Part shown: positions 1-63,906 of the stretch, piece after piece
How the letters are laid out: each line of letters opens with the position of its first letter
Position numbering within the stretch: position 1 is the first letter of the stretch
Source: Owenia fusiformis
Lineage: Eukaryota; Annelida; Polychaeta; Sabellida; Oweniidae
Assembly (NCBI GenBank): GCA_903813345.2
Contig: CAIIXF020000001.1
Coordinates: forward strand, 54,207,885-54,271,884
Direction: 5' to 3'
DNA length: 64,000 nucleotides
Position numbers and translations under genes: made by a program
The notes under the pieces: model-generated
Database searches by the model: none
Seen by the model: only the letters and a program-made list of their open reading frames with translations
What the model was told of the DNA's origin: nothing

Positions 1-575
1 GTACACCTGACCTGAAAACTGTCCCAAAACCAAGTACTAAATCAAAACACTACGGCAAACGCAAGTCAACGTAAGCCCGACGTGCGGCCACCGCGGGACA
101 GTTCTGCGCTGGCAACGGCCTGTTGATTTCTAGAGGGACCGTACGGTCTATAATTTTTGCGGTCAGTAACATTTCTACGGTCGGATACTTTTGCAGTCAC
201 ATTTCCTACGACAGCCGCATGGGGAATTTTGAATTTCTAACGTTAATGTTTGTTTTTATTTTATTTACATATGTTTAGTACAATTTATAAATGTGCTAGG
301 ATATAATATCAAATAAAAAATGTTGAAACAATGGTGAAACATTGACCAATAGTAACATAATCTTTTGTAATATACGTTCAGTGACCTTACATCAGACATT
401 ATACATTTTGCGTCTGTTCACAGCAAAGATATGACAGCAAACCTGACATGAAACACTGTTTCAAGGTACATACTAGTAACCTATCAAAACACTACGGCAG
501 ACGCAAGTCAAAATGTGTGGCCATCGTGGGACCGTTCTTCGGTCTGGCAACGGCCTGCTGATTTCAACGTGGACC
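1..575. repeat. Direct repeat of about 140 bp, two copies
   Basis: The segments at about 1-145 and 430-575 are diverged direct copies. Both contain a shared core (TCAAAACACTACGGCA, then ACGCAAGTCAA) and a GGCAACGGCCTG block in the same order. Nothing coding is visible. The region lies 3' of the last visible exon of the leftmost gene, so it may be intronic to that gene. Element type is not recognised. Confidence 0.6.
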
Positions 576-34615: not shown

Positions 34616-37600
34616 TTAAAAATACTGATCGCCAGTAGCAGGGTTATCATTGGCCTCACTATCAAAATGCCTCTGAACATGACGCTCAAAATCGTGTTGT
34701 GGGAAGTCCTTGTCAAAGACCTGCTGACACATTGGACACATTGTGACAAAATGACTCTGCACGTGGTCCTCATAGACTGCCTGAGGGCACTCTTGGAATG
34801 ATGTCATACACGTGGGGCATAGCTTTACACTCTCAGGATCCCCAACAGCATCATGGAACCTAATTTTTAAAAAAATCATGAGATTCAAAAATCAGAAGTG
34901 AAAGAAAATTTAGAAGAAATTTTCAAAATAGGAGAAAACTGGAACGATTTCATCCTATAAAGGACGATGACCACGGGATAAAATCCTATCATCAGGTTTC
35001 CTGGAATGACAAGATTTATTGGATAGATTGATGGATGGATGGATGGATAAATATTCAGTATAATATTTTGTGCATATTTTGCCCATTAAGATCTATAATT
35101 TTCACTTACTCATCAACATCGTCCTGCTCCTTGGAGGCATGTCTCTTCAACTGCTTCAGGCCAGCACCCTCACCAGACTGAACACCCTGACCTGGGCCAA
35201 CCTTAGCCACCTGTTTCACTGCAGCAACCTAAGGTACAATTTAAAACATGAAGCGAAAATATTATTATTTTTATGAAATAAAAAATCCTTTGAGTGTATT
35301 TCCTAGCTGGTTGTTAATTGAGCCAAGTAGTTTAAAAATATTCTCCACAAACACTTTCATTGTGAAATTATTTGTTCTTTTTGGTCTTTTCTGGCCAACA
35401 TGGGTATGTTTTAGCGTTATATTACTTTGATACAGTATACATTTTCTTGAGTAATGTTTAGAAACACATTTACATATTGACAAATCTTTTCCATAGTTTC
35501 AATAAATGCTTTGTACCTTTGCAGATGGTAACACCTCTGGCATCATTGGAGGAGGAAGAGGTTTTAATGGTTCCTCTAGCTGTCCAGTGGGTAAATCTTC
35601 ATCCAATGATGTTGTACTTGAGCTCTTTTCTTTGTCCTCTTTAACAAACTTCTCTGCAAGTGGGTTATGAAATATTTCAATTCTAAGGAATTGTCCAAGG
35701 AAATCATTAAGTGTTGATTAATAGGCTAGGTTAGGATTTCATATTCCAAGAACATAAGGGTTTATAGTTTGGAGTCAAAACTTCTGACAATTTGGGCATA
35801 TTGGTAAATTAACCAGCTCCAACTTTCCTCCTTTGGGGGTTAGAGTCACTTTTTCACCAAAACATGCCTTATTCAACTTTAAGAAAAGCCATAAAGTTTG
35901 AGGACATTTGACCAAAATACCTTAGGGGAGGGGGGGGGGGCAGATCTGGGCCCCTGACCATTTAAGGATTTTTTTTAAAAGTATTAATGTAAACTAAATA
36001 TCGACATAAAAATACCCCTTGAGCCTAATAATCATTAATGGAACTGAATGGCAGTTTAATGTTACCTTTGAATAAGCTATAAATGTCAACATACCCGTGT
36101 CATCCACATATGGGTTTCCATATTTCAGTGGAGGTGGTGCATTAACTTTAGCCATTTCAGCATAGGGATTGGGGTAGAGCTGCTGTGGGGGTTTCAGCAC
36201 TGGGCTACATGCTGCTGTATCTTGCTTCTTCGCAGCCTCCAGTTCTCTTTGCATCTTTGCCATGTCTTTATTTAGTTGGTCTATCACTCTCTGCAGTACA
36301 CAAGTGGATAAGAATATTACATGTATTTGGTTGAGCTGGAATGCTTTTAAAAACCAACTGAAATAATATCTGAACATAATTCAATGTCTATACAAGAGCA
36401 CTGCTGATGTTTATACACAACTGGAAAAGTACAACTTAAAGGATTGATCATTTTGAATTTATCAATTTTCTACAATTGCCTTTTATTCCAAATTATAGTT
36501 AAAGCAATGTCATGGAAAAAGTTGGAATATAATATGTAATATTAAACTCCTTTGCTTCTTACCTGTGAACTCTCCACATTTTCTTATATGTTATGTTAAA
36601 CTCCTTTGCTTCTTACCTGTGAACTCTCCGTATTTTCTTATATGTTATGTTAAACTCCTTTGCTTCTTACCAGTGAACTCTCCACATTTTCTTATATGTT
36701 ATGTTAAACTCCTTTGCTTCTTACCAGTGAACTCTCCACATTTTCTAATATGTAATGTTAAACTCCTTTGCTTCTTACCAGTGAACTCTCCACATTTTCT
36801 TATATGTTATGTTTAACTCCTTTGCTTCTTACCAGTGAACTCTCCACATTTTCTTATATGTTATGTTAAACTCCTTTGCTTCTTACCAGTGAACTCTCCA
36901 CATTTTCTAATATGTAATGTTAAACTCCTTTGCTTCTTACCAGTGAACTCTCCACATTTTCTTATATGTAATGTTAAACTCCTTTGCTTCTTACCAGTGA
37001 ACTCTCCACATTTTCTAATATGTAATGTTAAAATCCTTTGCTTCTTACCAGTGAACTCTCCACATTTTCTTATATGTAATGTTAAACTCATTTGCTTCTT
37101 ACCAGTGAACTCTCCACATTTTCTTATATGTTAATGTTAAACTCCTTTGCCTCTTACCAGTGAACTCTCCACATTTTCTTATATGTAATGTTAAACTCCT
37201 TTGCTTCTTACCAGTGAACTCTCCACATTTTCTTATATGTTATGTTAAACTCCTTTGCTTCCTCCCAGTGAACTCTCCACATTTTTTTATATGTAATATT
37301 AAACTCCTTTGCTTCTTACCAGTGAACTCTCCACATTTTCTTATATGTAATGTTAAACTCCTTTGCTTCTTACCAGTGAACTCTCCACATTTTCTTATAT
37401 GTAATGTTAAACTCCTTTCCTTCTTACCAGTGAACTCTCCACATTTTCTTATATGTAATGTTAAACTCCTTTGCTTCTTACCAGTGAACTCTCCACATTT
37501 TCTTATATGTAATGTTAAACTCCTTTGCTTCTTACCAGTGAACTCTCCACATTTTCTTATATGTAATATTAAACTCCTTTGCTTCTTACCAGTGAACTCT

Positions 37601-40600
37601 CCACATTTTCTAATATGTAATGTTAAACTCCTTTGCTTCTTACCAGTGAACTCTCCACATTTTCTTATATGTTATGTTAAACTCCTTTGCCTCTTACCAG
37701 TGAACTCTCCACATTTTCTTATATGTAATGTTAAACTCCTTTCCTTCTTACCAGTGAACTCTCCACATTTTCTTATATGTAATGTTAAACTCCTTTCCTT
37801 CTTACCAGTGAACTCTCCACATTTTCTTATATGTAAAATTAAACTCCTTTGCTTCTTACCAGTGAACTCTCCACATTTTCTAATATGTAATGTTAAACTC
37901 CTTTGCTTCTTACCAGTGAACACTCCACATTTTCTTATATGTAATGTTAAACTCCTTTCCTTCTTACCAGTGAACTCTCCACATTTTCTTATATGTAATA
38001 TTAAACTCCTTTGCTTCTTACCAGTGAACTCTCCACATTTTCTTATATGTTATGTTAAACTCCTTTGCTTCTTACCAGTGAACTCTCCACATCTTCTAAT
38101 ATGTAATGTTAAACTCCTTTGCTTCTTACCAGTGAACTCTCCACATTTTCTTATATGTTATGTTAAACTCCTTTGCTTCTTACCAGTGAACTCTCCACAT
38201 TTTCTTATATGTAATATTAAACTCCTTTGCTTCTTACCAGTGAACTCTCCACATTTTCTTATATGTAATGTTAAACTCCTTTGCCTCTTACCTGTTGACT
38301 CTCCACCTTTTGATCACACTCTAGTTTAAGCTCATCAACTTCAGAATCCTTTCTCTCGCACTCATCTCGAAGTTTCTTCAGCTCCTCATAGTAATGATTC
38401 TGCATGAACTCTCTCTTCTCATGCTCTTCTTGGTACAGCTTTTTGTATTTGTGTTTCTTCTGATTGCGCTCCTCAAGCTCATGACCAAGGTCCTCCAGTT
38501 GGGACTGCAGTTCTGTGCTGCTCAACTGTAGAGCTGCTGAGTCATTGTCACTCTGTGTAGAACTCTCTTTTGAATCTGTAACAAAGAACATGTAGATATT
38601 TCTTGCAAAAATAAGGGCTTGTAGTTCTCTTACTGTTCTAATATTATATATCTTATATACTTGTATATCTATATTATCAATGAATCAGTCACATTTGATC
38701 TACTGCAATCATACAGCAGCCATAGCTTCCCAAAATCGAGAGAAATATGCAGCATAAAATATAGGTATAAGCATTACAATGTAGATTTTCCTATCGATTT
38801 GTAAGGCTACGGCTGCCATATGACTGTCGTAGAGCAAATATGACTGAGGCTTTAGCAGCCAATTCTTCAAGTCTTTATCCTAGACACTGTAATGTTGTCA
38901 AAATGTTCTCACATATCTCCTAAGGACCCGATTATAGTAGCCTTGCACAAGTCGGTATTTTTTTACTAATCTGATCTTGAATTATTACCGCCTTGTACAA
39001 TCCTATACATCTCGGCTGATATTATGCTAAGATATTCAATGGTTTTGAGATTTCCATAATACCTACGCTATCAGGGGTATCGCGAAACCGAATTGATTGA
39101 CAGATCGCGTGGACGACACGACGTGTGACTTCAGGCTGATTGACCAATCAAAACGTTATCAGGTTGAGCTGCATAAACAAAGCAAACTTCCCGTCTACGA
39201 CTTGAAATTCAATGATCTGATCGAGTGTTGCAATATCATTCATGAACATATCATGTAATTAAATGTACATTGGAATGCTAGAGTCATTAATATAAATTAA
39301 ATCATGCGATTCAATGTTGATTTAAAACTGATTTCACGATGAAAATGCACGATGAAAATGTAGCGGGTCATGCAGTCGTCGATCAGTGATTATTAGTTAC
39401 CACCTTGCCGGGCCAGTTCTAGGGGTTTTAGTGCTAGTTTAGAAGGCGTTCATTTTACTATATCGACCTGAGAAATGTGTGACGTCATAGTGGTGGTCCA
39501 TATGGACCGGTCTAGAATATATTCTGGACCGGCAATTTTTCCCCGGGGAAATTAGATATCGTTCAGTGCGTAAGATTTTCTTGCTATTTCAGCCCTGGTC
39601 GTTAATGGTGGTAATAATACTAATAACGTCATTTCTGCGAGCAATATAGTGAAATCTTAAATTTCACTATATCGCCCTTAGAAATGACGTTATTGTACTA
39701 TTCGATCAATCTCAGCCTGCATGTTCGATCATTTGAATTCAGCGATCGTTTCAACATTTATTGTTGAAACCTTATCAGCTCTGGTTATCCAACTGATGCT
39801 GCGGCATCCACTAAACTCTGATTGATATTTATCTGATAAAATATTTGTATTTTCATGATGAATTCATGCAAGAATTGTTTGTGAAAAGTCCCGGTGAAAA
39901 GTGTACTTGTTTTTGACCGTGCAGAGCTAACGCTACAGGGCCGTCGTTCATTGGTCAAATTATCGGTAAAGCATGTGGCTTTCTCTTTGGTACAAGGTGA
40001 TCAAAATAGAAATCAAGATAAGTAAAAGAGACCGACTTGGGCAAGGCTACAATTATAGGTTTCTAATGCAATCATAAACAATAACAATTACCTGACTTTA
40101 CAGATGTCTGTACTGCACTAGTCTCCATCGAGGCAACTTTCTCTGCCTTCTGGTTGGTTTTTACTAATAATGATAATAATATTATTATAATATTGTAGAA
40201 TAAAATGACAGAATAGAATCCATAGAGTAGCAAATTAAAATAAAATATCAATCATTAATGGTACTTTTCAATGTTTTTTTTCATTTTGATTATTTCATGA
40301 GGGAAACAAAATGTAGGGGTGTAATAAAATAAACACATTTTTGGGTGACAATTTTTAATTCATTTAAGGTCACAGAAAATGAATTTGAAAGACAAATTGG
40401 TTCATATAAAATGAAGAGCTTAAAGTGAGAGTCAGATGGAGAAATCTATATAAATAGGGAGTTTTTGTTACATATTTAGTTGCAAGTCAATGCACATCTC
40501 ACAGTAGACTATAAGTTATGATTGTACCAAAAACTGACATCTGAATAATACTTTTTTTGGTACTTACTCTGCTTCTGTAGCTTCCTGATTTCAAGCTGGT

Positions 40601-43600: not shown

Positions 43601-46600
43601 TTAGACACCTCATAGTAAATGAAAGAAATGAACCTATTGTATAACTCTGCAAGCCAATAAAATTTCCATTTTGATTAATTACAAGTTATTTTTATCTCTA
43701 TTGTTGCTTAAGTTTCAACATTCAGTACCAATACATACCTGGACATCTTTCTGCAGTTGTTCAACATGATCTTCCTCAGTAGCCAGAGTTTTACTGATGG
43801 TCATTAGTTTATTGAGTAAACTGTCTCTCTCAACTTCTAGAATATCATGTGTCTGAATAACAAAATTGATAGTTTCAATAGGTTGAGGATGGTGAGAATC
43901 ATTTCTTTTGTATATTTAATCCAAAATAACCCACACTTTGGGGTATAACCAAAAACTTGCTTTAAATAGTTTTAAATTACAACAATAATCATTTTTAAAA
44001 ATATAAAAACATAAATTAAAATATATATGTAATTTATCTTAACCTTAACTAGCTGCTCATTTTCGGTTTTGACTTTTGCTAAACTGGTCTCGAGGGTCAT
44101 TGTTTTAGATTGAATAACCAACATGTTATTGTCGTCATCTTCAATCTCAACATAGTCTGTAACACCAGGTCTCTTGAATTGGAATGGCGTACTTGCTCCT
44201 CTAACTTGGCCCGACTGTGTCACATAACAGAACTGGTAAAATTCTCCATCATCTTTTGGTAGATTTTTTGCTGAAATATAGTCATAAGTTTAAAATAAAA
44301 CTCATGTAAACCTTTTATAAGTGATAGCATGTTTTCCAATATGGTGGCAGAAACATATATTTTCAACTTAATAATTAGATAACCTGAAGTAAACTAGATA
44401 ACCTATTTGATGTGTAAAACCTTCCTCCTGGTAATGATGACTAGATTTGTTTTTCCTTCCTCGTGCTGTTCTGAACCTCATTGTTAAGAAAATTAACACA
44501 TTATCTAGAATTGTGCAGCATATCATTCCCATAACCATGCTTGACTGTACCTAGCAGAGATGCTGCTTTTGGAATTCAGATCAAGAGCTAAGGTTATGCT
44601 CACTACACATTTTGAAGAAATATTCAAAGGGCTACATGCAAGTTCAGGACAATTATCAAAACAAATGAATTTTACTAAATAAATTTGTGCATGCACCTTT
44701 AGTACATCTTGGATTTCCAAGGCATGATATTTTCATACCTTGGAATATCAGGCTGAAATTTCTGCCCAAAACCCTACTAATTTGTCCTAGACTGAGGATT
44801 CTGATGAATGAGATAACATCTTATTCAGCCTACATTATGCTAATTCTTATGTATTAGGTAAATAGAAGCTGAGCAGTCAACCTCATTAGTAGTCAATCCG
44901 AAGGGCCATTAACTGGTTTAAAAGGAGTTTGACCAATGAGATCCTAGAGTAAAACAAACAAATCATCTGATTGTGCGCTGGATTTAACATGCACCAATCA
45001 GATGATTTGTTTGTTTTTCGGATAGAAAAGTTGTCCACTGATACCAGTGTGATTGAAAACCAAACTGGGAAACGAGTACATGTATATTTTTATGCCTTTA
45101 ATGAGAGTAGAAAATCAATTTCATTATCAAACCTTTTTTGCAAACCCCTCCATTTTAAGAAAGGTGAGGATTGACAAAACTCCATTTCAAAAAGTCAAAC
45201 AAGAACTCGAATGGTGTATTTGACCATTCTTGGAAACTGGATTTTCAGCTTAGATATAGTTACACAGGATCTTTTGAATGAGGCAGGTTTTGAATGGAGA
45301 ATTGTTTCAACTTGAAGTAAAGTTGAGTGACAAATGCGCAAAATGACCTTTTTCCTATCTAAATTCTTGACATGATGTTGTCATAAAATTTCTGATTTTT
45401 TTGTGGTCTAAAATGTTTCTGATGACAGCCCTGCAGGGTTCACATAACTGTGCTATAAATCACAGAATTTTGATCTCTACCACTGAATATTTCACATCAA
45501 TAGATGTATCTTTTTTTGTTCAATCATTTTTAATAATTATTTAAATACCTTGGAATACTATAGTAGAGTCTATGTCTTTGTTCTGTTCATGGTTCACTGG
45601 CATAGGTGCCCAGTCATAGTATGTGTAGTCTCTTGAAGATAGCCAACCAACCTGAAATGACATAAATGGTATCAAATTGATTTATTTACATGAGGGTGTG
45701 CACTGGCTGATTAGGGGGGGGGGGGGGGGCATGGGGGCCCGCCCCCCCCCTTGGGTGGGCCCAGAAAAAAAAATTTGGCCCAAAAAAAATGTTGGGCCAA
45801 AAAAGCCCTTCAGGCCCCAAAAAGTGGGCCTTTTTGGTCATTACTGGGCCTTTTAAGGCCTTATTTTTTAATTTCAGGCCAAATTTTGAAGAAAATGGGC
45901 CTCAAAAGGACGATTCTTGGTTTGGAGAACGAAGTTCATCAATCTAAATGAGCATTATCCCTGCTTCGGACAAATTTGATTTTTTTTACATAATATAGAT
46001 TTGAATGTCTTCTTTTGAATAGTCATAATTTAATTTGGGTAATATTTCTAGATTTTTCGCCAAAAAATATTAGCTCAGTACACTGATGGACTTCTTTCCC
46101 CGAATCGAGACTTGTATTTATATTGATTCGGTCTATTTGAGCATTATCTCTGCTTCAGACCAATTTGTTATCTTTACATCTTGTAGATTTAAATGTCCTC
46201 TTTTGAATATTCATAGTTTAATTTGGGTAATATTTCTATATTTTTCATGAAAAAAATTATTAGCCCAGGAGACTGTTCTCCAAACCGAGAATCGTCCTTT
46301 CAAAATTTGGGCCCACTTTTTGGTTTTAGGGGCCCAAACATTTTTTTCGGACGTTTTTTTCTCTGACTTGAAATTTGGGCCCCCCCTTGTTGATTCCCAG
46401 ATCCGCCCCTGGTGTGTACTTTTAGGTACACCCAGTCCCTGTATGTGTTTCCTTAAAAGCTTCACTTAAACAAACTGAGAACCTTCTAAGAAGCTCATGC
46501 TGAAAGAATATTCACCTTGTAAATTCCAACCCAATCTCTTGAGGTTGGAATGAGCTGTGATGTGATTGTAAAACGACAATCAATGTTGGCATCTGTCGGG

Positions 46601-46713
46601 TATGATTCCGCAATATTGTGGAAAACCACCTGAGCATAGTCTGGTACTTCAACTTCTGTATCTTTATCCATCTCGATATGCTCGAATTCTACTGCACTTT
46701 TAGGTTCTGCCAT
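34616..46713 (-). CDS. TAX1BP1: TAX1BP1/CALCOCO-family autophagy receptor (complete, 16 exons, 910 aa)
   Basis: Exons (minus): 46713-46516, 45651-45549, 44270-44044, 43852-43739, 43524-43285, 42794-42606, 42409-42272, 41863-41735, 41268-41071, 40712-40568, 40163-40092, 38575-38292, 36290-36095, 35653-35517, 35228-35110, 34859-34616. All phases agree and the total is 2733 nt. Residues about 27-132 form a SKICH domain (AQVVFHNIAESYP, DWVGIYK, then DDGEFYQFCYV and GASTPFQF). MLVI at 150-153 sits where vertebrate TAX1BP1 and NDP52 carry their noncanonical LC3-binding LVV motif. A long heptad-rich coiled coil fills most of 155-700. A proline-rich region with two NPY motifs follows. Two UBZ-like zinc fingers end the protein (C844, C847, H862, H866; C871, C874, H890, H894). 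The family links ubiquitinated cargo to autophagosomes and dampens NF-kB signalling. Human TAX1BP1 is 789 aa; the extra length is in the coiled-coil and linker parts. Confidence 0.9.
35030..35048. repeat. Tetranucleotide microsatellite (TGGA)n
   Basis: About four units of GATG/TGGA lie in intron 15 of the TAX1BP1-like gene (35030-35048). Confidence 0.7.
36541..38291 (-). repeat. 54 bp minisatellite built from the exon 12 end and its 5' splice site, 32 copies
   Basis: Read on the minus strand, each unit is GTGGAGAGTTCACTG then GTAAGAAGCAAAGGAG and an AT-rich remainder, 54 bp in total. Exon 12 of the TAX1BP1-like gene ends GTGGAGAGTCAACAG|GTAAGAGGCAAAGGAG, so the array repeats the exon end plus donor. 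I count 32 copies after the genuine donor at 38291; the distance from 38292 to the outermost donor (36563) is 1729 nt, 32 units. Donor GTAAG is kept in 31 copies; the one near 37261-37267 reads GGAGG. The two outermost copies have CACAG|GTAAG, the others CACTG|GTAAG. The unit length is a multiple of three, which explains long frames across the array. In the exon 12 frame each unit carries TAA. Confidence 0.92.
38937..40050. mobile_element. 1.1 kb TIR element in intron 11 of the TAX1BP1-like gene
   Basis: GTAGCCTTGCACAAGTCGGT at 38937-38956 is inverted at 40031-40050 with one mismatch. Outer flanks are GATTATA and AATTATA, possibly a degraded target duplication. It contains the second copy of the dispersed 290 bp repeat (39399-39702). 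No ORF is seen. Confidence 0.65.
39399..39702. repeat. Dispersed 290 bp repeat, copy 2
   Basis: This matches 17221-17505 in the same orientation. It includes a short inverted pair (GGTCCATATGGACC), a GTGACGTCATAG block and an ATTTCACTATAT inverted pair near 39640-39672. Confidence 0.75.
45704..46411. mobile_element. MITE with G/C runs and 8 bp flanking repeat
   Basis: The element lies in intron 1 of the TAX1BP1-like gene. Flanks GTGTGCAC (45696-45703) and GTGTGTAC (46412-46419) match at 7 of 8 positions, as expected for a hAT-type 8 bp target duplication. The right end reads inward as CAGGGGCGGATC, a form seen in hAT-type MITEs. Inverted TGGGCCC-rich tracts lie inside both ends, a G16 run at 45714-45729 and a C-rich run near 46380. 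The interior holds two copies of a 170 bp dispersed repeat. Confidence 0.6.
45916..46300. repeat. Dispersed 170 bp repeat, two tandem copies
   Basis: The segments from about 45916 and about 46135 share GAGCATTATCNCTGCTTC, TAGATTTRAATGTC and AGTTTAATTTGGGTAATATT with each other and with 23641-23820. CGGTTTGGAGAAC occurs in opposite orientations at the two ends. Confidence 0.65.
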
Positions 46714-47713
46714 TTTTTATACTAATGTATGACTAGTATATTCTGGAAGTAGTCTAGAAAAATTATATTTGATTATCTTGAAATATGAATTTAGTTAGTG
46801 TGCCAATGATTCCCTTATAATTTTATTGCCTGAAAAAAGTGTTACACATCATTGCAGAAAATAAACCCTTTGTTACACATGTGACTTTACGTACATGCAC
46901 TTTGAATAGAAGAGAATCATGTGAACACCCAAATGTTCTTCCTACATGTAGAAGTAATCATACATTTTCCAAATTCAGGCATGACGACATGTTCTGATTT
47001 TTAGTGTTTTTTCTTCATTCAGATTACTATTTCGACGAATTAAAAAAGTTATTGCTTGTGAAAACTGATAATACAAATCAGGTGCTGATGACGATTCATT
47101 GACACGATGACACATGTTTAATCTGACCAGTAATAATCTTAGAAATCTACTGCTGTCCACTTGACTTTTGTTTTGTTATGATTTTTTTGTGAGTCACAAA
47201 ATTTTTTAGAGCATTTTCTCCCAAAATACTACCTATTAGGGATAGCAAATTGTTCTTACCAAGAGTTATTTATACACTTCGTATTCACAGTGACAAGGTG
47301 GCAAATTCCACGCTGACCTTTGAACAAGCTGAAAGACGAAATTATGAGGTTTTGTGCAGTTTTTCCATCCTGATTGCAAAGTTTATTTTGGTTCGTGACG
47401 TCATGAACTTTACATCGGCTATCTCCGCTTATTTCCGATAAATCTAAATAATTAATCTGAAGAAAATTGCAAATTTATCTAACTAGAAAAGACTTGAATA
47501 AGCAAAAAAGAATTTCAAACATATTTCAAAATAATATCACATTATTTTTTTCAATAATTACATCCTCAAGTTCAAAGGTCACGGCCATTGTCTATCCTCG
47601 GCATTTGATCTTGAGTTCAGTTTTGCTTATTTGTTGATCGTTTCACTGTTCACACACATTCCTGATCGTGATAACAAAAGATTAAAACAAGGGGAAGTAC
47701 TACCGTTAGGAGC
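46714..47713. promoter_or_regulatory. Divergent intergenic region between TAX1BP1-like and GPD1 genes
   Basis: One kilobase separates the two start codons, which point away from each other. Both 5' UTRs and promoters must lie here unless upstream noncoding exons exist. I see no clear TATA box with correct spacing and no CpG-dense core. The layout allows shared regulation, but this is inference. Confidence 0.5.
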
Positions 47714-59700: not shown

Positions 59701-62700
59701 CTAAGTATTTAAAATGACATATAGATATTTCTGAAATAGTCTTGCATCAAGATCCCCTATCAAACACCAAAAAGGTTGTACAAGTATTTAAAAGAAAGTT
59801 AAAAAACAGATCTTAATGCAAGACTCACTATGACAGAATTGGTCAATATAATTTACTTTTGCTTGTGTTAAATCTTGCAGGTTGTAAAAATCGTGAAATG
59901 GGTCTCTTACTAAAGAGCATGGTCCAAACTCCATACTTCAGAATAGTTGTAATAGATGATGAACATACTGTTGAATTATGTGGTGCTTTGAAGGTGAGAA
60001 TATAATTTATAGTTTAATATAAACATTTTGAAACATGTACAGTATAAATGTTATTTGTATTGACTTATAATCTGTGAACTGTATTATGCCTCATTTACAA
60101 ATTTAATGTGAAGACTTTCAGTAGAATTATGGAATTACAGCATTTTCATTTGTCTTATTTTTTATCTGAGATGTTGTTCTTGTAAAAAACATATAAATAT
60201 AATGAATCCAAAAGTATCAATGTAAGTAAAACATGAAATTGTATACATAGTGCCATGGTCTTTTATATCTTTCAATTTAGCCAGCCTTCTGAGGCAATTT
60301 TCACCGGTTGCATTCACAAAATCGCCTGTTGTTTTTAGTGACTTTTCAACATAAATTTAATAATCATTTTTTGGATGGTAACATTATAATTTGAAATATA
60401 TATTTTTCTGTATATTGTTTTAGAAAACACATTAGACACTTCTTTTGTTCTTCGTATCATATGTTCGGAATGAAATGAAACATCTAATCCGAACCTCATT
60501 GGAACAAAAAGACATAAACACAACGTGTTAAGGTCTCTCAATATTGTAATTGTACAAAGGAAAGTTTGGTTTTTTTTTTTTTATATTTTTATATTTCCTT
60601 TATTTCATAATACATCATACAAACAGATACAGGGCCTACGCCGAAGCATTATTGGCCCTGTTGAAGTAGTTACAATATAAGTTAAAATAGGTCATAATGT
60701 AAAAATGATAGATATAGAACATATTTATGAACATGAAAATAATCTTGAAAACATGAAGACAGGTCAGAGATATATGTATAAATTAATGAATATTGGACTA
60801 TTTAACTTCCTTGACAATAGAGTGTAAAAACTCGGCTGTTAATTCAATAGCCTTTTTATTTGTAATTGTGTCAAGAGAAGGATCTGCAAAAAGTAGAAAG
60901 TCTACCCTGTCCTCCTGTTTTCTATTATTAAAAGAGTTTAAATTAAAGGATGGCAGTCCCCCTAGTTCTCTGTGAAAATTGAGTCTTTGAGTGTTAAAAA
61001 GAGGGCAATGGAGCAATAGGTGTTTGGTTGATTCAGTAGAGTGACCACATTTACATTTGGCATTTGGAATATTTTTGAAGTTATGTGTAAAAAGATGCTG
61101 CCTAAAAATGAGATCACATCTCGTTTTATTTAAGACAATTTCTTTATCTCTGGATAGGTTTAATCTTGGGGTTGTGAATTCTTACTTTTTCCCATTCAAA
61201 AATGTTCTAATTTTATACTTAAATGAGTTGCGTGAGTGTGCTTGTTTCAGTTCATCAGGTAAATTATCCCATAATTTAATACTGGATAAAGCTGTAAACT
61301 TTCTAAGTTTAGCAGATGCTTTGAATGGGATCTTAAAATCATTGGTACGACGAAGTCTTTGGTGGGTTACCTGATTCTTATACTGTTCAAAAACATTTGA
61401 AACATATGAAGGCATCTTATAATTATTTACAAAGTCAAACATAAAAACTAGTTTTTTTTCTTTTCTTCGATTGGATAAGGATCTCCATCCAAGACATGCC
61501 ATCACCTTCTCAGAGTTTGACCCTTGGATGCAACCACTTACAATAAGACCCGCTCTATATTGGACTCTATCTAAACTTGCTAAGAGGTTTAGATTTGCGC
61601 TGTCAAAAATAATATTGCCATATTCGAGATGTGGGAGAATGAATGCCATGTAAATTGTCTGTAAGTGTTTTGATCTTACTGAAAATTTGAGTGCTTTTAA
61701 TGGATTTAACATTTTATTACACCTAGTAATCACTGAGTTAATGTGTTCTTCAAAGCTAAGGTGTTTGTCTAAAATGATGCCTAAATGTTTATGGCTATTT
61801 ACAAGAGGTATTTGCTCATTACTCATTGTTACTGGAATTTGTTTCTTAACTTTTCGTGTGTGTTTAGATTGAAAGATAACCTCCTTACTCTTAGATGCCT
61901 TAAATTTGAGTTTCCATTTAGTGGACCAATTAGCCATTTCATTGATATCTGATTGAATTTTTTGATTTGTTGTTTCAACTGATTCATTCTTTGGTACTGT
62001 CAAGAAGATCGAACTATCATCAGCATATAAGAAAAGTTTACAATTATGAACTGAGTCTGCTAAGTCATTAATATATAACAAAAATAATAGGGGGCCAAGA
62101 ATTGATCCTTGGGGAACCCCACTATTTATTTCATAGGATCTGGAGTCTCGATTTTGACGATTTTGAGGAATATTTGCACCAGTTTCAGCATTACATGAAA
62201 TGTCTGAATAAGTATCATTGATCCTTACTTTTAATTTCCTATCTGTTAGATATGAGGTCAATAACTCTATAATATTGTTGCCTAATCCATAAGATTTCAT
62301 CTTATGGAGTAACAAAAAATGTGGGACTGCGTCAAATGCACCTTCCACGTCTAAAAATATTCCACGGGTTGCTAGGTTAGAGTCAAAATTATCGGCTAAC
62401 ATATTAACAATAGAAAATAGTTGCTTCTGTGTATTATGGCCTGGTAAGAACCCGGACTGATTTTCATAAATGAGGTTCTTCGAGGAAACATGGTCAAAAA
62501 TTGCTGTATAAATTATTCGTTCAAAAAGCTTTGAGAGATTATTGAGGAGGCAGATTGGTCTGTAGTTGGATGGGTCTGTTTTTGAATTTTTATTCTTATA
62601 TATAGGAACAATTATACCCAGTTTCCAGCAATCAGGAAATGTATTTGTCTCCAAGAAAATAGTAAATAATTTAACTAGTTCAACATCGATAGAGTCAGCC

Positions 62701-63906
62701 ACAAGTTTCAACATTTTGTTAGTGATATTATCTTCTCCACCTTTTTTGGATGAATTAAGGTTCCGTAAGTTATCATTCATATTTTTTCGAGAAATATTTA
62801 TGTAAGTCAAAGATTCATTTGTTTTCATAGGACAGGGCGGCAATGACTTATCAATTATATTATGGTGGAACTTAGTCATGAACTTATTTAAAAAAGCATT
62901 TGCTTTTCCAAGGTCATCATCAATAATTTTATCATTTATCTCAAGAAGAGGAATGCCTGTTGAAAACTTGGTTCCTATAAGTTTCTTTATAATTGTCCAG
63001 TAGTTTAGGCCATTTGCTGCTTCTTCATCCAAGTTATTACAAAGTTTATCTTGATAGTTGTTCTTTGAGTCAGTAATTAATTTGGTAAGATATGCGTTTT
63101 GCTTTTTAAATTGGTTGATGTTTAAGTCATTAAGTTTGGTTGATTTTAAAAAAGTATCTTGTTAATGAAATAAAAGGATTATCTTGATTTTTATCTATTT
63201 TGGGGGGTTTTGTTTTAAGTCTTTGCATACTTCTTGTTAAATCAACCAAAAATTTCCTTTGTATAACTATAATATTGAAAAGTGTCTAAGAAAATGTTGT
63301 ATATGCTATTTTGTTCCAACAAGGTTCGGAAAGACATTTTATTTCATTCTCAAGAATTGGTAGAAAGGAATAAGAAACAATTGTACCAAAAACAAAAATG
63401 TTAACAAAAACATTTATATAAAATGTATATAAATAATTTTTGCATTAAATTGTTGCCAATCAGTCAACATTACATAAAGGATCGTGTTATTTTACAGAAT
63501 GTTTTCAATAATTGGTTTAAGAGAAAAACATTGTTGAATTCAGTTCACCATATCAATACCTATCCTTTATGATTTCCATAAATTTTGCCTGTTGGTTTTA
63601 AATTATTTAGCCTGTTGTGAGAAATTCTAGTGAAACCCCTGATGAAGTGTGATGTATTCTTATTGCCACCCTTGTGTGACAAATGTAGACAGTCAGCATC
63701 TATAACAAATTATTGCACTTTTGTAACCATTTGCAATTTACCTACTGTATGTAATTTCTATTCACCTTAGTATTGATTGTTGTAGAATATTGTAGCTGTT
63801 GGTGCAGGGTTTGTGGATGGGCTAGGCTATGGGGATAATACAAAGGCAGCTGTCATCAGGCTAGGACTTATGGAGATGGTTAAATTTGCAGAGACATTTT
63901 ATCCAG
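47714..63906 (+). CDS. GPD1: Cytosolic NAD-dependent glycerol-3-phosphate dehydrogenase (5' part; 3' end off window)
   Basis: Exons: 47714-47757, 53056-53233, 53451-53591, then alternative 54807-54951 or 56033-56171, then 59881-59993 and 63786-63906. Phases are 2, 0, 0, 1, 0, 1. The enzyme interconverts dihydroxyacetone phosphate and glycerol-3-phosphate with NADH in the cytosol, feeding lipid synthesis and the glycerophosphate shuttle. The Rossmann motif GSGNWG (residues 11-16) is split by intron 1. Exon 2 carries VKMYVYEE. Exon 3 has [13 protein letters not shown] and ends at SLIK, whose lysine aligns with the catalytic-site K120 of human GPD1. Exon 4 has MGAN and CEATIG. Exon 6 has [20 protein letters not shown]. 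The start is chosen because [14 protein letters not shown] begins at the family's usual distance before the glycine motif. The remaining C-terminal exons lie to the right. Introns are large and full of repeats. Confidence 0.93.
47887..48007. repeat. 60 bp tandem duplication
   Basis: Two copies (47887-47947, 47948-48007) of TACTCGAGTCTCTAG...AATACTGTGAACTCT lie at the start of GPD1 intron 1. The second copy runs directly into the 460 bp duplication. Confidence 0.85.
48001..48922. repeat. 460 bp tandem duplication in GPD1 intron 1
   Basis: Copy A is 48001-48460 and copy B is 48461-48922, with high identity. Each contains AATGGCTCCAAGAAAAATGG, AAAATGGCGGACATA and a 47 nt exon-like segment bounded by CATGCAG and GTAAGT (A, 48408-48454) or GTAAAC (B, 48871-48917). 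No GPD1-related protein is encoded by the segment. Confidence 0.85.
49055..49538. mobile_element. MITE with 50 bp TIRs and TTA duplication
   Basis: GGGGCGGGGTCAAAATATCG at 49055 and its complement ending 49538 extend about 50 bp inward (GTTCATATGGAGACGAAAGT). TTA flanks both ends (49052-49054, 49539-49541). G-rich runs occur near 49100 and 49456-49480. It lies in GPD1 intron 1. Confidence 0.75.
49585..51665. repeat. Inverted pair of 75 bp repeats
   Basis: The segments 49588-49663 and about 51588-51662 are inverted copies (AATTTTTCTTAGGAAATACATC / GATGTATTTACTTAGAAAAATT). The stretch at 50690-50925 between them is an inverted copy of 25095-25310. All are within GPD1 intron 1; element types are unknown. 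Confidence 0.6.
49860..52990. other. Rest of GPD1 intron 1, no further gene seen
   Basis: Besides the repeats and RT fossil listed separately, I see no exon. A 139-codon minus-strand frame at 51572-51991 overlaps a repeat and has no recognisable homology. Confidence 0.45.
52018..52136 (+). pseudogene. Small reverse transcriptase fossil with internal deletion
   Basis: [13 protein letters not shown], the RT motif A region with its first catalytic aspartate, is followed directly by [15 protein letters not shown], which in LINE RTs normally lies about 30-40 residues further on. The intervening segment is deleted. No RT flanks are recognised. Confidence 0.65.
54807..54951 (+). CDS. GPD1: GPD1 alternative exon 4a (divergent form)
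   Basis: This follows CATTTACAG and ends ATA G|GTATAA. It encodes [20 protein letters not shown] through [20 protein letters not shown]. It is homologous to exon 4b, with about 25 of 38 residues identical from the LISN region on, and is two residues longer. It departs from the usual GPD1 sequence at its start and at VVPQ, where the family has IA.E. Both boundary phases equal those of 4b. Confidence 0.85.
55532..55733. mobile_element. 202 bp MITE with CAGGCCCGTAGC ends
   Basis: CAGGCCCGTAGCCAGGATTTG at 55532 is mirrored by CAAGGGGG-type and GCTACGGGCCTG sequence ending at 55733, with GCCTC directly repeated on both sides (55527-55531, 55734-55738). A G13 run lies near 55688-55700. It sits between GPD1 alternative exons 4a and 4b. 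Confidence 0.75.
56033..56171 (+). CDS. GPD1: GPD1 alternative exon 4b (canonical form)
   Basis: This follows TGTTGATTTCAG and ends ATA G|GTAGGA. It encodes [18 protein letters not shown] through [20 protein letters not shown], close to the usual animal GPD1 sequence in this region. Length 139 nt; like 4a (145 nt) it is 1 modulo 3, so the two exons cannot both be included without a frameshift. Confidence 0.88.
57495..59522. mobile_element. 2.0 kb element with perfect 31 bp TIRs and a recurring GCTCTTCGGAAAGGAC motif
   Basis: TIRs at 57495-57525 and 59492-59522 are exact inverted copies (TAGGGCTTGAGCAAGC inward), flanked by TA. Inside, GCTCTTCGGAAAGGAC or a one-base variant occurs in direct orientation at 57685, 58045, 58590, 58757 and 58923, and once inverted at 58743-58758, abutting the fourth copy to form a palindrome. 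No transposase frame is seen. It lies in the GPD1 intron between exons 4b and 5. Confidence 0.75.
60572..63131 (-). mobile_element. 5'-truncated non-LTR retrotransposon with 10 bp target-site duplication
   Basis: The target duplication AAGTTTGGTT lies at 60562-60571 and 63132-63141. The element is antisense to GPD1; its A-rich tail appears as a run of T at 60571-60582. The RT frame is open to the very 5' edge, so the endonuclease and ORF1 parts were lost by truncation during insertion. About 225 bp of 3' UTR separate the final stop from the tail. Confidence 0.88.
60798..63131 (-). pseudogene. LINE reverse transcriptase ORF, truncated and with one in-frame stop
   Basis: The frame is open from the truncation edge (63131) to TAA at 61182-61184, then continues in the same frame to a second stop at 60798. 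Counting from codon 63032, RT landmarks are SNYRPI (about 157), [12 protein letters not shown] (about 226, motif A), [14 protein letters not shown] (about 303) and LYADDSS (about 335, catalytic). The part after the internal stop contains CKCGHS and HLLLHCPLF, a C-x-C...H...C module common at the C-termini of such ORFs. The TAA therefore looks like a disabling point change; no frameshift is visible. The clade is CR1/Jockey-like in a broad sense. Confidence 0.85.

Follow-up and report, generated by a model that had tools for sequence, protein, structure and literature searches.

The host gene and its intron

The stretch of Owenia fusiformis DNA analyzed here (64,000 nucleotides; the window, to which all coordinates refer) carries a TAX1BP1-like gene on its minus strand, predicted to encode a receptor of the autophagy type. 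This assignment, already made when the letters were read without database searches (the sequence-only reading), is supported by Pfam matches to the SKICH domain and to autophagy-receptor zinc fingers. Furthermore, the zinc-finger exon matched only chains of Tax1-binding protein 1 among solved structures in the PDB (five sequences, best match 2.9e-11). The relevant parts of the gene are as follows:

46498..46716, minus strand: open frame that includes the first coding exon, N-terminal part of SKICH (Pfam PF17751, 8e-11)
43975..44289, minus strand: open frame, C-terminal part of SKICH (Pfam PF17751, 1.1e-8)
38292..38575, minus strand: coding exon that seeds the array at its 3' end, exon 12 of the sequence-only reading (open frame and splice signals)
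38286..38294, minus strand: true 5' splice site, CAG/GTAAGA (donor listing; U1 duplex -11.5)
38271..38273, minus strand: in-frame TAA after VRGKGV, reached when the true donor is skipped (reading frame)
36291..38291, minus strand: host intron of 2001 nt, 1760 nt of which are array (splice signals)
36095..36290, minus strand: next exon, phase 0 start, exon 13 of the sequence-only reading (splice signals; 3' end read by eye)
34619..34891, minus strand: last exon, an open frame encoding two zinc fingers (two stretches matching Pfam PF18112, 1.2e-8; PDB, 2.9e-11)

The exon-exon junction is in phase 0 on both sides, with one exon ending at 38292 and the next starting at 36290. Skipping the first donor adds VRGKGV and then the TAA, whichever distal copy is used, and the stop would lie 33 nt upstream of the new junction with the first distal copy and at least 87 nt upstream with later ones. 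The truncation that had been predicted for distal-donor use is thus borne out by the frame, and the zinc fingers of the last exon would be lost. Elsewhere in the window, a reverse transcriptase domain (RVT_1, 2.7e-32) in an open frame of 659 codons (61185-63161, minus strand) marks a retroelement.

A minisatellite built from an exon-intron junction

The array that fills most of this intron was recovered by TRF as a repeat of period 54 with 32.9 copies and 95% matches. In the donor listing it resolves into 33 positions. The first is the true donor, with the G of its GT at 38291; of the 32 copies that follow downstream, 31 keep GTAAG. Both results confirm the 54-bp period and the copy numbers of the sequence-only reading. 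Its range of 36541-38575 does include the array and the exon but merges the two. The features of the array are the following:

36532..38311, minus strand: 54-bp tandem array (minisatellite), 33 unit positions, donors in the gene's sense (TRF and donor listing)
38292..38311, minus strand: 20 bases at the end of the exon, which form the exonic part of unit 0 (comparison with the copies)
37260..37268, minus strand: dead donor copy at 37265, GGAGG for GTAAG (donor listing, U1 duplex)
36611..36619, minus strand: distal copy at 36616, CAG/GTAAGA, identical to the true donor from -3 to +6 (donor listing, U1 duplex)
36557..36565, minus strand: most distal copy at 36562, CAG/GTAAGA, likewise identical from -3 to +6 (donor listing, U1 duplex)

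Donors are spaced by 54 throughout except for a single step of 55, and one copy, that at 37157, has a 1-base insertion. The copies differ pairwise by 4.3% on average (43 differences from their consensus in 1,728 cells).

Each unit consists of the last 20 bases of the exon and the first 34 of the intron. The exon tail matches the copy consensus at 16 of 20 positions and the most distal copy at 17 of 20; over the whole unit, the exon version departs from the consensus at 5 of 54 positions, four of them among the exon bases. With the array and its near flank set aside, 124,176 20-mer positions on the two strands of the window were compared with the exonic part of the consensus, and none shared as many as 16 bases with it (best, 15). 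Because the unit carries 20 exon bases together with 34 intron bases, its resemblance to the exon end is not a matter of chance. The origin from the exon end and its donor that the sequence-only reading had proposed is upheld, with 20 exon bases in place of about 15. Its other concern, that the array might be an unrelated satellite or the likeness a coincidence, is answered by the exon bases in the unit and by a whole-genome search in which all 32 matches fell inside the array, using a tool that skips very common words.

Divergence is uneven along the array. The exon unit has five differences from the consensus, the two most distal copies have four each and the other 30 copies have none to three (inner copies average about 1.2). 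The three copies adjoining the exon differ by only one base each, which leaves the exon unit and the distal end as the basis of any edge pattern. No higher-order period stood out, with mean differences of 2.0 to 2.6 at all lags from 1 to 20. CTG replaces CAG in the 30 copies nearest the exon and is absent from the two farthest, a distribution that fits the spread of one founder unit.

The antisense strand of the array contains an open frame of 406 codons encoding an 18-residue repeat (37109-38326, plus strand). This frame stays open because 54 is a multiple of three, and the gene-sense unit likewise spans 18 codons. The antisense unit also includes a pyrimidine-rich run, ...CTTACCAG, that resembles a 3' splice site.

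The abundance of U1-complementary sites raises the idea that the array acts as a U1 platform (telescripting) that shields the transcript from premature polyadenylation. The number of such sites is the sole point in favor of this idea. Only 241 nt of the intron lie outside the array, which means that the array itself supplies the length that would need protection, and we find a role of this kind scarcely credible.

Strength and conservation of the repeated donors

Duplex energies were computed with the sequence that we take to be the 5' end of U1. The true donor scores -11.5, as do the two most distal copies, whereas 29 copies score -8.0 and the dead one -4.7. The sequence-only reading had described near-identical decoys weaker than the first donor, which holds for 30 of the 32 copies but not for the two most distal. 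Its suggestion that a stronger first donor buffers the array agrees with the energies of those 30 copies; however, the idea does not account for the two most distal copies, which are as strong as the true donor.

The same reading had asked whether GTAAG is conserved beyond the rest of the unit. We found no such excess: the GTAAG columns show two changes in 160 cells (permutation P(<=) 0.52; two of the five columns vary) and the columns from -3 to +6 show four in 288 (P 0.41). Conservation of the donor columns does not exceed that of the remainder, and selection need not be invoked to explain why so many copies keep GTAAG. Selection on the donors was set aside as an explanation on the strength of this column permutation.

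These results bear on a regulatory role for the copies, in which U1 bound to them would slow or divert splicing so that a share of the transcripts would keep the intron or be spliced from a distal donor, yielding a receptor without zinc fingers or a degraded mRNA. That 31 of 32 donors are intact, two of them the same as the true one, speaks for such a field of decoys. A human parallel is the donor minisatellite of IFI6 (6-16/G1P3; Turri 1995, as cited in PMC4526556, PMC2572611, and PMC3618361), which, according to passages of the citing papers, also offers repeated splice donors to one transcript. Splicing there is reported to employ two downstream units as donors (PMC4526556), whereas any such use here would add a stop. 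Against a regulatory role stand the donor columns, which lack excess conservation, and the weaker CTG at -3 to -1 in 30 of the 32 copies. Furthermore, the arrays of amphioxus known as mirages are reported, in passages of PMC3087553, not to interfere with splicing. We consider regulation by decoys improbable.

Likeness to amphioxus mirages and proposed origin

Mirages are minisatellite-like tandem copies of an exon-intron boundary with a splice signal in many copies, and in this the TAX1BP1-like array is the same. Published passages describe them from a handful of amphioxus genes (PMC3087553), namely Adh3, the globins BflGb6 and BflGb9, troponin C and PGBD5 (PMC3087553, PMC3902484). The unit derived from a boundary is present here as 20 exon and 34 intron bases. 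The repeated AG/GT is represented by GTAAG in 31 of 32 copies, with AG/GT itself in two distal copies only and TG/GT in the other 29. The Owenia array belongs to another phylum and has 32 copies, against 6 and 3 in two haplotypes of BflGb6. In the BflGb6 mirage, the edges of the cluster are described as excluded from homogenization (PMC3087553). Mirages are further characterized by length instability between alleles or cells.

Other known systems are less close. Intron gain by tandem genomic duplication, as outlined in PMC4974935, also involves a tandem duplication that carries splice signals, but here an existing intron was enlarged and none is new. Indeed, the copies lie inside one intron whose sides join in phase 0, rather than forming a new intron within an exon. 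Intronic minisatellites are described in earthworm metallothionein genes, and the passages of that report seen here do not mention copies of splice sites (PMC12783039). In mainly open-access literature, represented mostly by titles and the openings of abstracts, we found no report of mirages by that name outside amphioxus. Human IFI6, as described in the citing papers, is a precedent outside amphioxus without the name.

Together, these features make it probable that the array is a neutral minisatellite of the mirage type, which arose when sequence spanning an exon-intron junction was duplicated, and that splicing normally uses the first donor. The 20 exon and 34 intron bases on either side of the junction would have been duplicated in tandem, and unequal exchange or slippage may then have multiplied and homogenized the units. 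The intact exon would have remained with its own donor at the 5' edge of the array, which would explain why the array is tolerated: the spliceosome would normally choose the first donor, because the whole exon precedes it and because its pairing with U1 is stronger than that of 30 of the 32 copies, and the array would be removed with the intron. In favor of a neutral mirage we count the exon-tail unit, the single locus, the higher divergence of the exon unit and the two most distal copies, the lack of donor-column conservation and the similar arrays elsewhere in the genome. Against it we count the two distal copies equal to the true donor and the 31 of 32 GTAAG, which selection could explain too. 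On balance, we infer that the TAX1BP1-like array is neutral.

The array is a real and long example of the mirage kind, from a phylum new to it, and its genome apparently contains others. Arrays of this type are natural tests of how the spliceosome chooses among tens of near-identical donors. With 31 intact copies, two of them identical to the true site, the TAX1BP1-like array is a good substrate for such tests.

Other donor arrays in the genome

We also searched the genome for tandem donors. Three-copy CAGGTAAG patterns matched 99+75 times at gaps of 4-34 (reversed motif, 57+6) and 416+85 at gaps of 35-65 (reversed motif, 54+2). CAGGTGAG patterns (gaps 20-50) gave 241+173 matches versus 16+30, and CAGGTAAGT patterns (gaps 25-55) gave 101+39 versus 52+1. 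These counts are matches rather than arrays, one array giving many, and are not normalized for octamer frequency; octamers within the window were too few for that.

Among the matches listed (about the first 100 per donor search), 31 donor arrays (20 + 11) were picked by eye as a non-random sample that leaves out C6:40170651 and a dispersed family starting CAGGTAAGCACGTCATGATGTGCAGGGTATCAG, and the 5' flank of each array was read. By unblinded inspection, 20 of the 31 start where an open, exon-like stretch ends. Pfam matches at E <= 0.001 stop no more than one residue from the first donor in seven of the 31: NIF (L018), B56 (L028), Peptidase_M24 (L030), DHC_N1 (L022), PF15874 (L025), Rieske_4 (L084) and Kringle (L091), with the L022 and L091 matches (two of the seven) below Pfam's curated cut-off. 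The scan covered 24 of the 31 arrays, all except L087, L089 and five of the first 20 in which no frame reached 25 codons. Three further matches were less exact: Caprin-1_C ends seven residues short of the donor in L090, L088 has a weak match (0.02), and L017 has a tRNA-synthetase match in an exon that seems to end before the array.

The controls were the complete list of nine reversed-motif arrays (18 edges, 29 frames). None of the nine had an abutting Pfam match, and a single RasGAP match ended 35 residues from the edge. The difference between seven of 31 and none of nine arrays gives a Fisher P of 0.14, or 0.03 counting the 18 control edges; open-frame length at the first donor (20 arrays versus 18 control edges) gives P 0.07. 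Short exons from other arrays, when compared with the PDB, returned no match. The evidence is suggestive of other arrays sharing the build of exon tail plus donor. Finding it several times in a lophotrochozoan genome suggests that duplication across splice junctions is a more general route of intron growth.

The Hox genes of this genome include two with a UbdA-type flank and one with a Lox5-type KLTGP flank, which we take to be lophotrochozoan Hox markers and which speak against a cephalochordate origin, and 11 homeobox matches lie together on contig C1. O. fusiformis is reported to have 12 chromosomes, with the Hox cluster on chromosome 1 (PMC9977687). A COX1 search of the genome returned no match; a search for the GFP family was also empty, but so were its controls, and it carries no weight. 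The dynein-like exon of L022 also has a two-copy duplication around its 3' splice site, within about 300 bases before the first donor.

The repeat starting CAGGTAAGCACGTCATGATGTGCAGGGTATCAG occurs with small variants on C1, C3, C4, C5, C6, C7, C9 and C10 among the matches listed and is a satellite or transposon family. Such a family raises the alternative that the TAX1BP1-like array is itself an anonymous satellite or transposon-borne repeat that adjoins the exon by accident. Some CAGGTAAG arrays are indeed dispersed, as this repeat is on at least eight contigs among the matches listed, or lie away from any visible exon (e.g., L023, L029, L035). The TAX1BP1-like unit, in contrast, includes 20 exon bases and was found at its own locus alone (with a tool that skips very common words), which makes an accidental neighbor very unlikely.

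Unit build in other donor arrays

The junction-duplication reading of the TAX1BP1-like array can be compared with the build of the other units. The exon tail was measured (>=10) in 17 of the 20 exon-anchored arrays, and L021, L084 and L088 were dropped for short or misaligned tails. These units are mostly exon tail, with a median intron-only share of 0.125 and 16 of 17 below 0.5; L031 compares two copies within the array, and without it 15 of 16 are below 0.5, the exception being L091. The TAX1BP1-like array differs, with 34 of its 54 unit bases intronic. The intron breakpoint of donor-array units lies soon after the donor.

In four of 16 arrays (L018, L033, L093, L094), the exon has AAG exactly where the donor has AAG at +3 to +5. 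With a chance of 1/64 per array the binomial P is 9e-5, and with 1/20 it is 0.007, but the coincidence was noticed post hoc and exons may be AAG-rich. This hints at microhomology at the breakpoints. More broadly, and as a rather doubtful proposal, 5' splice sites could be recurrent seeds of minisatellites in this genome, where microhomology of the donor GT/AAG(T) with exonic AAG(T) allows slippage and the first donor wins. If true, splice sites would continually supply tandem repeats, and with them material from which new introns could form, in phyla that are only distantly related.

Probable arrays at 3' splice sites

Both 5' and 3' boundaries are reported in amphioxus mirages, and arrays copying acceptors at exons likely exist in O. 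fusiformis too. Three-copy TTTGCAGG patterns (gaps 35-65) gave 82+129 matches versus 0+37. When the 3' flanks of 19 acceptor arrays were read, some were seen to enter an exon-like open frame whose first bases are those repeated in the array (e.g., L047, L049, L061, L062). A Pfam scan of 21 frames after acceptor arrays (13 of the 19 arrays) matched two families at E <= 0.01 and, more weakly, MoCoBD_2 (0.011) and AMP-binding_C (0.071). The arrays L047-L065 consist of tandem copies of an intron end, AG and an apparent exon start.
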